From Peptoniphilus ovalis (GTDB taxonomy: Bacteria; Bacillota; Clostridia; Tissierellales; Peptoniphilaceae): a stretch of 64,000 nucleotides of DNA. Shown here one piece after another: positions 7,215 to 64,000 of the stretch; position 1 is the first letter of the stretch; each line of letters begins with the position of its first letter. The stretch covers positions 1 to 64,000 of the forward strand of contig NZ_JAHLQO010000001.1 in the NCBI RefSeq assembly GCF_018919265.1. Direction: 5' to 3'. The translations under genes and the position numbers were made by a program. The notes under the pieces are model-generated. The model was not told where the DNA came from and ran no database searches. It saw only the letters and a program-made list of their open reading frames with translations.

Positions 7215-7496
7215 ATGGAATAAAAAAAGACTTCCATCCTATAATTAGGACAAAAGTCATAACTTCTGCGGTACCACCTAAATTTGCTTAAAGCACACCT
7301 CACATCAATACTATCATATTGGTCTTATTTTAACGGCTAAGTCCCGTCGGGTATTACTTTAAACTAAGTTTATTTCTTCCCGCCCTCAGAAGTCCATTCA
7401 TTTAAAAAGCCTGTATACGATTCTCACAGCAAATGAATCGCTCTCTTAATACCTCTTTAAAAACTACTACTCTTCGTTATCGGTTTCGCTATTTGA
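7215..7496 (-). ncRNA. T-box leader, probable tryptophan specificity
   Basis: The reverse strand between promoter and TrpX gene carries a full T-box. The conserved antiterminator core AGGTGGTACCGCAG is at 7266-7279. A long Stem I lies at about 7370-7490, and TGG (7394-7396) sits in the expected 3' side of the specifier loop, in the context GAATGGACTTC. A terminator with T7 follows. Uncharged tRNA-Trp would bind and favour read-through. Specifier choice is by eye and fits the transporter it controls. Confidence 0.9.
7222..7258 (-). terminator. T-box regulated terminator of trpXYZ
   Basis: GACTTTTGTCCT pairs with AGGATGGAAGTC (12 bp with G-T pairs), with a six-base loop and seven Ts. Its left arm begins just after the T-box motif, as expected for mutually exclusive folding. 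Confidence 0.85.
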
Positions 7497-40343: not shown

Positions 40344-40374
40344 TAAAAAAACGTCTCTGCAAAATACAGAGACG
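40344..40374 (-). terminator. T-box regulated terminator of leuACDB
   Basis: CGTCTCTG and CAGAGACG form an 8-bp stem with a 7-base loop and eight Ts, immediately after the T-box motif. Confidence 0.88.
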
Positions 40375-40565
40375 AAAGTTCGCGTTACCACACTGTTTCC
40401 CATAATAAATTATGAGCACTCAAATCTTTAAGGCAGATATACCTCACTTCTTACTGATTTCAGAAATGAACTGTAATAGGCGAGAAATTATTTTTCCAGA
40501 CTGCTGACTTTCACCAACCGTTAGCTCTCTAAAAGTCGAAACAAATAATGCTCCTATTAATTAGT
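40344..40565 (-). ncRNA. T-box leader of leuACDB, probable leucine specificity
   Basis: The reverse strand shows the T-box core AGTGTGGTAACGCG (40381-40394) before the terminator and a Stem I with GAGAGCTAACGGTTGGTGAAA further up. The specifier appears to be CTC (40482-40484; context ATTTCTCGCC), a leucine codon, which matches the leu genes. Uncharged tRNA-Leu would allow read-through. A candidate -10 TATAAT lies at 40573-40578, without a clear -35. Confidence 0.88.
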
Positions 40566-40859
40566 TTAATTAATTATAAATTGTATTAGTAAATAAATTA
40601 CTGATACTTTGTAAAATTATTGTATAATTTTCATACAATCCTTTTTTTGATGTTAGAAAGTATTTTAACACAGAGAAAAATAAATGCAAGCACTTTTTTA
40701 AAATTTTTTATTTTTTTTAATTTAAATAATTTAGAATATAAAAATTAAAAGCTTAGCATATTTAAGGACTGCTGTGTATCCTGTGGGTATCTCTGACAAG
40801 AAAAATTGGGACTGAACCCTATGAAAACACAAGGTACAGTCCCATAACATCATAAATAT
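40566..40859. other. Noncoding gap between leu T-box and CPBP gene
   Basis: AT-rich, with a candidate -10 TATAAT at 40573-40578 (reverse strand). A degenerate pair GGGACTG (40808) and TACAGTCCC (40835) of the GGGACAGTCCC family lies near the right end. Nothing else is supported. Confidence 0.6.
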
Positions 40860-62280: not shown

Positions 62281-62308
62281 ACAACACCTCTTTTAATTTA
62301 CTTATTAC

Positions 62309-62338
62309 ATTATAACTAAGAATACGTGTCATATTCAA
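62309..62338 (-). promoter_or_regulatory. Sigma-A-type promoter of the glmU operon
   Basis: TTGAAT (62333-62338) and TATAAT (62309-62314), 18 bp apart on the reverse strand. Confidence 0.75.
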
Positions 62339-62399
62339 GAAATAATTAAATTCTTTTGATTTTTGCTAAAATTCTTAGTAATTTATTAAATATTTTTGT

Positions 62400-62427
62400 T
62401 TGAAATTTTTTCAATTGGGAATATAAT
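62400..62427 (+). promoter_or_regulatory. Promoter of the cysteine leader/cysKE operon
   Basis: TTGAAA (62400-62405), 16 bp, TATAAT (62422-62427); predicted start about 62434, with the leader ribosome site AAAGGAG at 62441-62447. Confidence 0.75.
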
Positions 62428-62455
62428 AAATATAAAGATTAAAGGAGCGATTAAT

Positions 62456-62524
62456 ATGTTTTATTCAAATTATAAAAATTTAACAGCTCAAGCATTCTGT
62501 TGTTGTTCTATAAAAATTTTATAG
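62456..62524 (+). CDS. Cysteine-rich leader peptide, 22 residues
   Basis: ATG at 62456 is 8 bases after AAAGGAG. The frame reads MFYSNYKNLTAQAF, then CCC from three consecutive TGT codons (62498-62506), then SIKIL and TAG. It is too short for a normal gene but has promoter, ribosome site, clustered Cys codons and a downstream terminator, followed by cysK. Ribosome stalling at the Cys codons when Cys-tRNA is low would set the fold of the RNA behind it. Reading as a regulatory leader is inference, but strongly supported by the pairing pattern. Confidence 0.88.
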   Translation: MFYSNYKNLTAQAFCCCSIKIL

Positions 62525-62598
62525 GACTTATTTGAATGTCTAATCAATATTTGTAAATGAATTTAAAGAGTATGTGATTATTCATGTACTCTTTTTTT
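62462..62598 (+). promoter_or_regulatory. Cysteine-responsive attenuator (1:2, 2:3, 3:4 pairings)
   Basis: Segment 1, ATTCAAAT (62463-62470), pairs exactly with segment 2, ATTTGAAT (62530-62537). Segment 2 in the form ACTTATTTGAAT (62526-62537) can instead pair with segment 3, ATTTAAAGAGT (62561-62571), with one bulged A and two G-T pairs. Segment 3, AAAGAGTATGTG (62565-62576), pairs with segment 4 (62583-62594) to make the terminator. A ribosome at the leader stop would cover segment 2 and allow termination; one stalled at the Cys codons would leave it free. Confidence 0.8.
62565..62598 (+). terminator. Attenuator terminator before cysK
   Basis: AAAGAGTATGTG pairs with CATGTACTCTTT (12 bp with two G-T pairs), with a six-base loop and a T tail, 43 bases before cysK. 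Confidence 0.88.
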
Positions 62599-62640
62599 AT
62601 TGTAGTTAAAAAGTAAAAAGAAAAAGGAGAAGAAGAAATC

Positions 62641-63531
62641 ATGAAAAATATTTTAGAAACAATTGGCAATACAAAATTAGTTAAACTTAAAAACATTGGT
62701 AACGGAAACATTTATGTAAAGGTTGAAAAAACAAACCCAGCTGCATCCGTTAAAGACAGACCTGCATATTATATGATTAAGGGAGCAATTGAAGATGGCT
62801 CACTCAAACCTGGAATGAAAATTGTCGAACCTACAAGTGGTAATACTGGAATTGCCATAGCATTAATTGGTAAAGCTTTAGGATACGAAGTTAATATTGT
62901 AATGCCAGAAGGAATGAGTGTTGAAAGACGTGCTCTTATTAAATCTTTCGGAGCAAAATTAATATTAACTGGCGAAGGTGGAATGCAAGCAGCAGTTGAC
63001 AAGGCGAAAGAACTTGTTGCAACTGGAGAATACTTTATGCCAAATCAATTTGAAAACAAGTACAATGCAAAGGCTCACGAAGAAACAACAGGTCCTGAAA
63101 TTTATGATGATTTAAAGGACATCACAGGATTTGTCGCAGGTATTGGTACAGGCGGAACTGTAACTGGTGTTGGAAGATTTTTAAAATCAAAAATTAAAGA
63201 TGTAAAAATTTGGGGCCTTGAACCAGCTGAATCTCCACTTCTTACAGAAGGTCATGCAGGTTCTCATAAGATTCAAGGAATTGGTGCAAACTTCGTGCCA
63301 GGAGTTTTGGATAAAACTGTACTTGATGATATAATTACTGTAAAATCAGAAGAAGCAATAGAAATGGCAAAAAGACTTTCTCGTGAAGAAGGACTTTCAG
63401 TTGGCATTTCAGCTGGTGCCAATGTAGTTGGCGCATTAAAAATGCAAGAAAAATTAGGAGGAAATATTGTGACAGTTGCACCTGACACTGCAGAAAGGTA
63501 TATGTCAACAGATTTATTTAAAGATGAGTAA
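62641..63531 (+). CDS. cysK: Cysteine synthase (O-acetylserine sulfhydrylase)
   Basis: The 296-residue PLP enzyme has NPAASVKDR with the PLP lysine K38, PTSGNTGIA, and [10 protein letters not shown] (phosphate loop). It makes cysteine from O-acetylserine and sulfide. AAAAGGAG precedes the ATG. cysE overlaps its stop by 8 bases, so the two steps of cysteine synthesis are coupled under one attenuator. Length is normal; CysK rather than CysM is assumed. Confidence 0.93.
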
Positions 63532-64000
63532 TTTTTTTAAAGAGTTAAAATCCTATGGCGAGTTTATCTTAACAAAGGACCCTGCCTGTAAAAATTTATT
63601 TGAAGCAATTTTTATGTATCCAATTGTATCTTGTATGATAAGATACAGAATTGCTCATTACTTTTACGAAAGGGGCAACACAACTTTTGCAAGGTGGATT
63701 TCTCAAAGAGCGCGAAAGAAAACTGGAATTGAAATTCATCCCGGTGCAAAAATTGGCAAAAATTTATTTATAGATCATGGAATGGCCGTCGTAATTGGAG
63801 AAACGGCTGAAATTGGCGACAACTGCCACATGTATCACAATATAACTCTTGGAGGAACTGGAAACGAAAAAGAAAAAAAGAGACACCCCACTGTTGGAAA
63901 CAATGTAATAATTGGAACTGGTGCCACTGTCCTTGGTCCAGTTGTCATTGGAGATGGTGCAAAGATTGGAGCAGGCGCATTAGTCTTAACTGACATTCCT
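63524..64000 (+). CDS. cysE: Serine O-acetyltransferase (cut by window edge)
   Basis: The frame starts at ATG 63524, overlapping the cysK stop, and runs open to the window end (159 codons). It reads [20 protein letters not shown], then [35 protein letters not shown] and YHNITLGG. The hexapeptide-repeat left-handed helix and the DHG and HNITLGG motifs are those of CysE. It makes O-acetylserine for CysK. The C-terminus, including the tail that binds CysK, lies outside. Confidence 0.94.

Follow-up and report, generated by a model that had tools for sequence, protein, structure and literature searches.

The cysK-cysE locus and its leader

The window analysed here, a stretch of 64,000 nucleotides from Peptoniphilus ovalis, ends within a cysK-cysE gene pair. 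The genes and the features in front of them are as follows, with the strand in brackets.

62400-62427 (+), promoter-like site TTGAAA-N16-TATAAT, sigma-70-like, 11 of 12 consensus bases
62444-62447 (+), GGAG, ribosome site of the leader ORF, clear in the window sequence
62456-62524 (+), leader ORF MFYSNYKNLTAQAFCCCSIKIL and stop, 22 codons, ATG at 62456 and TAG at 62522-62524
62492-62497 (+), segment 1, GCATTC, directly 5' of the Cys codons, pairs with GAATGT at 62534-62539
62498-62506 (+), TGT TGT TGT, three tandem Cys codons of the leader ORF
62505-62527 (+), inner hairpin of the 1:2 structure, 62505-62514 with 62518-62527
62534-62557 (+), segment 2, the 3' arm of the outer stem plus the predicted antiterminator strand, 62541-62552 pairing with 62568-62580
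62565-62598 (+), intrinsic terminator (segments 3 and 4) with T tail, stem 62565-62594
62641-63531 (+), cysK, cysteine synthase A (TIGR01139, 379.4 bits, cut-off 350.95, NCBIfam)
63524-64000 (+), cysE, serine O-acetyltransferase, continuing beyond the window end (TIGR01172 and NF041874 over cut-off)

The cysE start codon at 63524 overlaps the cysK stop, and on the contig the cysE product is 183 amino acids long. The promoter, ribosome site, 22-codon frame with three TGT codons, and terminator that the initial annotation had placed before cysK were all located. The promoter-like site is weak on its own because two such sites were found in 62300-62700 compared with 3.7 in shuffled sequences; one terminator was found compared with a mean of 0.0 in shuffles. 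The leader RNA of the window folds at -40 kcal/mol compared with -23.3 kcal/mol for shuffled versions (z -4.63, 0/200).

Searched with covariance models, the leader has no match to the T-box model RF00230, and no S-box or other Rfam riboswitch was found in it, the best weak match being unrelated (E 1.4). The genome contains 18 T-box matches, 15 of them over the cut-off, and none was seen before a cysteine gene when the longest downstream ORFs were read; with control by CymR in view, Rrf2-family genes were counted in the same genome, and two are over the cut-off. Both of the T-boxes previously reported in the window were confirmed. By reading, the T-box at 40365-40570 (-) lies before a 2-isopropylmalate synthase-like gene and that at 7243-7489 (-) before an ABC substrate-binding lipoprotein-like gene.

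Conservation and distribution of the leader

CysK homologues are present in 107 of the 130 genomes of the family, and the best 30 places were taken with their flanks; two of the entries (L001 and L002) are both the window and were counted once. In 17 of these best 30 places a short ORF with a Cys run, together with a terminator, lies 5' of cysK, the run being CCC in 15 leaders and CC in two, and a rescan of all 13 other places found no Cys-run leader up to the cysK start. The short ORF at L017 has no terminator and was rejected as a chance ORF. The arrangement before cysK-cysE occurs throughout the window's GTDB genus, Peptoniphilus (14 of 14 genomes), and in three other genomes of the family, or 17 of the 130 searched, and cysE directly follows cysK at each of the 17 loci. 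Most of the 17 leaders are close relatives of each other.

A covariance model built from the 17 leaders gave one strong match per genome in the 14 genus genomes and in G070, G085, and G129, and all 17 matches sit upstream of cysK. Re-finding these leaders was expected because the model was built from them; the new information is that each genome has one copy and no others. Two weak matches in G014 and G040 (E 0.003 and 0.009) were rejected on reading: one has no Cys run or adjoining cys gene and the other overlaps the end of a protein-coding gene. Scans of the order (17 of 249 genomes) and of genomes drawn from the class (5 of 391) gave matches exclusively within the family, with filters that lose weak matches and that leaders of different sequence would escape. 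Among named genomes, a pattern scan picked out 14 contigs, from ten named Peptoniphilus species (including P. harei, P. vaginalis, P. gorbachii, and P. grossensis), a Peptoniphilus MAG, Mediannikoviicoccus vaginalis, Ndiopella massiliensis, and a Tissierellia MAG. On a tree of 42 CysK proteins the distribution of the leader requires two changes, such as a single gain plus a loss in G054/G106/G108; support for the fork joining these 20 rows (the leader carriers and the three genomes named) is only 87/86.

An in-frame ATG is found 36, 39, 42, or 45 nucleotides before the first Cys codon in all 17 leaders, five of which have an additional in-frame ATG. By eye, a sequence resembling a Shine-Dalgarno site is present in most of the relatives' leaders and is weak in L018, L020, and L021. 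One leader has a synonymous change in the Cys run (TGT TGC TGT). The end of the peptide, CCCSIKNFIGLI, is identical in 8 of the 17 leaders and differs by one residue in three more, and the leader is 22 codons long in the window compared with at least 27 in most of the genus.

Hairpin structure and covariation

The leaders have in common the core GCATTC-TGTTGTTG-TTCTATA...TATAGRA-CTTATTT-GAATG, which is a plain stem with an A-T loop. The outer stem directly encloses the Cys codons, and the 5' arm of the inner hairpin starts within the third of them. In an alignment of the 17 rows fitted to the model structure, 98.8% of the cells in the outer, inner, and terminator helices are paired, and seven pairs have changes on both sides compared with 1.6 in shuffles (0/500 as high). 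A second test, on a plain MAFFT alignment, gave 96.6% of cells paired and six pairs with two-sided changes. Taken separately, the outer helix of five pairs has 96.5% of cells paired and one pair with a two-sided change, the inner hairpin 98.8% and two such pairs, and the terminator helix 100% and four. In L018, for example, CATTC:GAATG is replaced by CATTG:CAATG, and pairs in the terminator switch from A-U to G-C. The parts of the leader, its reading frame, and its place in the genome are conserved along with the 1:2 and 3:4 pairings.

The pairing of segments 3 and 4 into the terminator, as initially annotated, agrees with the stem at 62565-62594, while segment 1 had to be moved. An exact complement of 62530-62537 had been noted at 62463-62470; it exists, but in this leader alone (1 of 17), and the minimum-energy fold skips it. 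The conserved segment 1 is GCATTC at 62492-62497.

The position of the stop codon divides the leaders. In six (the window, L009, and L018-L021) an early TAG lies in the 3' arm of the inner hairpin, 18-27 nucleotides past the first Cys base, and in the other 11 a late TGA overlaps segment 2, 36 nucleotides past the first Cys base and 12 nucleotides farther from the Cys codons than the stop of the window. L018-L021, all of them with early stops, are the most divergent of the leaders.

The predicted antiterminator

Folding predicts that the stretch 3' of the outer stem pairs with the 5' arm and loop of the terminator, forming a long, imperfect antiterminator. In the states with a ribosome stalled at the Cys codons, the expected number of 2:3 pairs is 11.9-15.1 in 15 of the 17 leaders, 6.1-14.5 in L010, and 6.2-7.8 in L019. 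Shuffled versions of segment 2 pair as well in at most 30 of 500 cases in 16 of the 17 leaders; the window, with 30 of 500 pairing at least as well, is the weakest of these 16, and L019 fails the test with 224 of 500. When segments were exchanged among seven chosen representatives, 9 of 5040 permutations were as good as the true matching, and segment 2 of the window fitted its own segment 3 best among the seven; with the terminator's 3' arm shortened by its first four bases, the result dropped to 720/5040.

For 2:3 and its competition with the terminator, which are known from computation, the column-wise support is mixed. The proportion of paired cells (85.7%) was reached by 3 of 500 shuffles and the covariation score by 2 of 500, but the four two-sided pairs were reached by 75 of 500 and the further pair types by 382 of 500, and two of six slides of the register (by -3 and +2 columns) gave more two-sided pairs than the true one. 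The mutual exclusion of 1:2 and 2:3 would be only partial because their overlap is limited to the GAATG arm. Folding with an arbitrary transcript end, and with pairing across the ribosome allowed, predicted more 2:3 in the Cys-stalled than in the free state in most leaders, but no such rise in the window, L005, or L010, and hardly any in L019. Of the pairing with 62561-62571 that the initial annotation had given for segment 2, a short A-U/G-U match can be recognized by eye, while the antiterminator of 62541-62552 with 62568-62580 is better supported. Conservation in relatives, which had been suggested as the check on the whole arrangement, holds for the Cys codons, the frame, and the compensatory changes in the redrawn 1:2 and in 3:4, and is mixed for the columns of 2:3.

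Ribosome position and terminator preference

Terminator preference was calculated as the cost of forbidding the terminator, both in free RNA and in the RNA left beyond a ribosome placed on the Cys codons or the stop. The ribosome edge was assumed to lie 13 nucleotides from the first base of the A-site codon, and the values are equilibrium estimates, while attenuation is kinetic. For the window the values are 7.8 kcal/mol (free RNA), 7.9 kcal/mol (second Cys codon occupied), and 5.7 kcal/mol (stop occupied), so this copy shows no switch in the expected direction; nor did two other folding calculations find one.

Across the 17 leaders, a ribosome at the stop rather than at the second Cys codon favors the terminator by at least 0.5 kcal/mol in 12 (0.8-7.5), including all 11 with late stops; the comparison is flat in three and opposite by at least 0.5 kcal/mol in two (the window and L009). 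With the ribosome at the second Cys codon rather than absent, read-through is favored by at least 0.5 kcal/mol in eight leaders and opposed in six. A terminating ribosome covering segment 2, as first proposed, is consistent with the 11 later-stop leaders and not with the TAG of the window ending at 62524, where the RNA would be free from 62535 on and the main antiterminator strand starts at 62541. In all six early-stop leaders the stop-bound ribosome does not, or hardly, reach that strand. In five of these six, the terminator is more strongly preferred, by 0.6-4.6 kcal/mol, in the free state (1:2 formed) than in the stalled one; the sixth is the window (7.8 free compared with 7.9 stalled). By a generous count made after the fact, one route or the other supports attenuation in 16 of the 17 leaders, and neither does in the window.

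Proposed mechanism and alternative readings

The cysK-cysE leader is very probably a cysteine-specific, ribosome-mediated transcription attenuator, as the initial annotation had suggested. On sequence evidence this is the best reading of the conserved ORF, the Cys run, the terminator, the compensatory pairs, and the position before cysK-cysE. Two further points favor it: the tandem codons specify the amino acid that the controlled genes produce, and in four relatives a T-box stands before cysK instead. The leader RNA would form a hairpin enclosing the Cys codons (1:2, consisting of the outer GCATTC:GAATGT and the inner stem), followed by the terminator (3:4). With enough Cys-tRNA, the ribosome would pass the Cys run and the terminator would form: in the 11 of 17 leaders with late stops because a ribosome at the later TGA would sit on segment 2, and in the early-stop leaders, including the window, through re-formation of 1:2 after the ribosome is released. 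When Cys-tRNA is short, the ribosome would wait at the Cys codons, covering segment 1 and the 5' arm of the inner stem; segment 2 would then be free to pair with the 5' arm and loop of the terminator (2:3), and cysK-cysE would be transcribed. Stalling, read-through, and a response of the leader to cysteine are what we infer from this arrangement.

The neutrality of the window in ribosome-position folding raises the question of whether its copy has decayed, the device being functional in relatives. A loop shorter by one A would have moved the stop out of segment 2, and the terminator would therefore act here as a nearly constant brake. This is unlikely: the short leader (22 codons compared with at least 27 in most of the genus) and the sequence CTAATCA in segment 2, where most leaders have GAATCA, are consistent with decay, but early stops inside the hairpin occur in 6 of the 17 leaders, including the most divergent, L018-L021, and in five of those six the free state favors the terminator over the second-Cys state (by 0.6-4.6 kcal/mol). 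Segment 2 of the window also pairs best with its own segment 3 among the seven representatives. Because the parts are conserved and because of this fit, the window copy is likely to be a functional attenuator.

Two further readings concern all of the leaders. Around the Cys run, the sequence of the hairpin is conserved beyond the needs of the peptide alone, as might be expected of a structured RNA that senses a metabolite or protein, such as a new riboswitch, with the Cys codons incidental or merely structural. The core is just a plain stem with an A-T loop and matches no Rfam family, however, and the in-frame start is kept in 17 of 17 leaders despite its varying distance from the Cys codons (36, 39, 42, or 45 nucleotides); the change to TGT TGC TGT is synonymous, and cysteine is the product of the controlled genes, all of which make such a sensor very improbable. 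Less probable still is that the ORF makes a small protein with an independent role, or acts by simple upstream-ORF coupling, with the terminator as a constitutive reducer of expression. The peptide end that is identical in 8 of 17 leaders and one residue different in three more could be read in that way, but the C-terminus, length, and stop vary by lineage while the pairings persist.

Comparison with known systems

The trp and his attenuators of Escherichia coli combine tandem codons for the end product, segments pairing as 1:2, 2:3, and 3:4, an intrinsic terminator, and a biosynthetic operon. The cysK leader resembles them in its tandem product codons, three segment pairings (2:3 as predicted), terminator, and biosynthetic operon; it differs in having Cys codons, in its Firmicutes host, and in the placement of the Cys codons inside the 1:2 hairpin, and its predicted 2:3 pairing, long and rich in A-U, excludes 1:2 only in part.

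In Firmicutes, His leader peptides have been described in Bacilli, with the statement that regular leader peptides replace T-boxes in the phylum (PMC2965389), and His leaders in three lineages (PMC9413887). As with the cysK leader, these have a leader peptide where others have T-boxes, and a terminator with an antiterminator; they differ in controlling histidine genes and in occurring in Bacilli or the B. cereus group, Peptostreptococcaceae with Lutispora, and Erysipelotrichales (PMC2965389, PMC9413887). No Cys case occurs in the passages of these two papers considered here. The uORFC-8-2 motif is a Cys attenuator before cysS in Rhodobacterales (PMC8632094) which also has tandem Cys codons in the first of two stems and a U run consistent with a terminator stem, while its host is alphaproteobacterial, its Cys codons are two in number and mostly UGC, and its gene encodes cysteinyl-tRNA synthetase. 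The cysK leader is set apart from uORFC-8-2 by its place (cysK-cysE) and host (Peptoniphilus and its kin). In Actinobacteria, Cys leader peptides likewise precede cys genes and carry their Cys runs close to the stop codon of the leader ORF, but they have no conserved terminator hairpin, and the authors suggest Rho (PMC1262725); the cysK leader has such a hairpin. Clostridium perfringens has a Cys T-box before cysK-cysE (PMC2940859), so that operon, signal (tRNA-Cys charging), and premature termination are the same, but the T-box senses the tRNA directly, without a leader peptide, and there is no T-box at the Peptoniphilus leader.

The initial annotation had proposed that the device may be undescribed. 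This is fair for cysteine in Firmicutes, where no Cys leader-peptide attenuator was found among the papers listed (mostly open full texts, judged by title, opening of the abstract, or selected passages), while His leaders in Firmicutes and the Cys leader of Rhodobacterales are already published. One listed paper, on attenuation in M. tuberculosis, contains the terms cysteine-responsive and uORF (PMC13236596). The type of attenuator is therefore known, and within that literature its Cys case at cysK-cysE in this bacterial group was not found.

Other cysK regions and a second cysteine leader

An Rfam scan of 57 further cysK upstream regions found an RF00230 T-box on the cysK strand in four (L116, L118, L120, and L121, from two genera). 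In L118 and L121 the position that we take to be the specifier, assigned by analogy, reads UGC (Cys). Short ORFs with CC or C.C occur in 9 of the 57 regions, and by eye only that of L123 (genome G060) is leader-like: the ORF, MCCCCC..., is unrelated, lies upstream of cysK, and is accompanied by a ribosome site and a terminator-like hairpin. On the CysK tree the L123 protein groups with the four T-box CysK proteins (98/97).

In all eight genomes of another genus of the family (g2; L186-L193), a polar amino-acid ABC permease gene is preceded by a Cys-rich leader ORF (e.g., MVKQIQTICKCACTCTCCCTGYLPAQMFWEEP) and a GC-rich terminator, with a second permease alongside each time; in L186, for example, the leader is at 1322-1420 and the permease gene starts at 1501. 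The one g2 genome read further (G008) also has an ATPase and a binding-protein-like ORF there. With PRK15100, a model for cystine permeases (cut-off 300), the first permease reaches 126.8 bits, less than with two ectoine models, while PRK15100 is the best model for the second (116.5, far below the cut-off); because the scores fall so far short, the substrate is inferred mainly from the leader. Within the LPAQ codons, GCCTGC pairs with the terminator sequence GCGGGC (-11.7 to -15.2). Free RNA prefers the terminator by 2.7-9.2 kcal/mol; when a ribosome occupies the last Cys codons, the preference is 0-0.2 kcal/mol in seven of the eight leaders and 2.6 in L190. By these calculations, with a computed switch in 7 of 8, the g2 transporter leader would be the clearest Cys attenuator of this analysis. 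No likeness between it and the cysK leader was noticed on reading.

There is about an even chance that Cys leader attenuators arose more than once in the T-box-rich Peptoniphilaceae, standing where relatives have T-boxes: before cysK-cysE in Peptoniphilus and its kin, perhaps before the one cysK with a CCCCC leader, and before the predicted cystine-type ABC transporter operon of g2. The late-stop cysK leaders (segment 2 covered) and the early-stop ones (1:2 re-formed) would then be two natural versions of the off state. If the cysK leader acts as proposed, the leader peptides of Firmicutes would sense cysteine as well as the amino acids already known, and the same operon, under ribosome stalling in one genus and a T-box in relatives, offers a natural comparison. 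The stop-codon variants would provide a handle on what the terminating ribosome contributes to attenuation, and the leader is also a conserved RNA motif without a match in Rfam.

A pattern search of the family for Cys-run ORFs gave some match in 69 of 130 genomes, which by eye are mostly chance or coding. Matches to the pattern MKINNECCCGC were rejected as leaders, as they are the start of a full-length Cys-rich protein beside a transposase-like ORF. This protein, MKINNECCCGCKTEK..., is found in that setting in L156, L163, L171, and similar places (three were read) and looks mobile; the same 40 bases occur at its start in 19 of the 130 family genomes.
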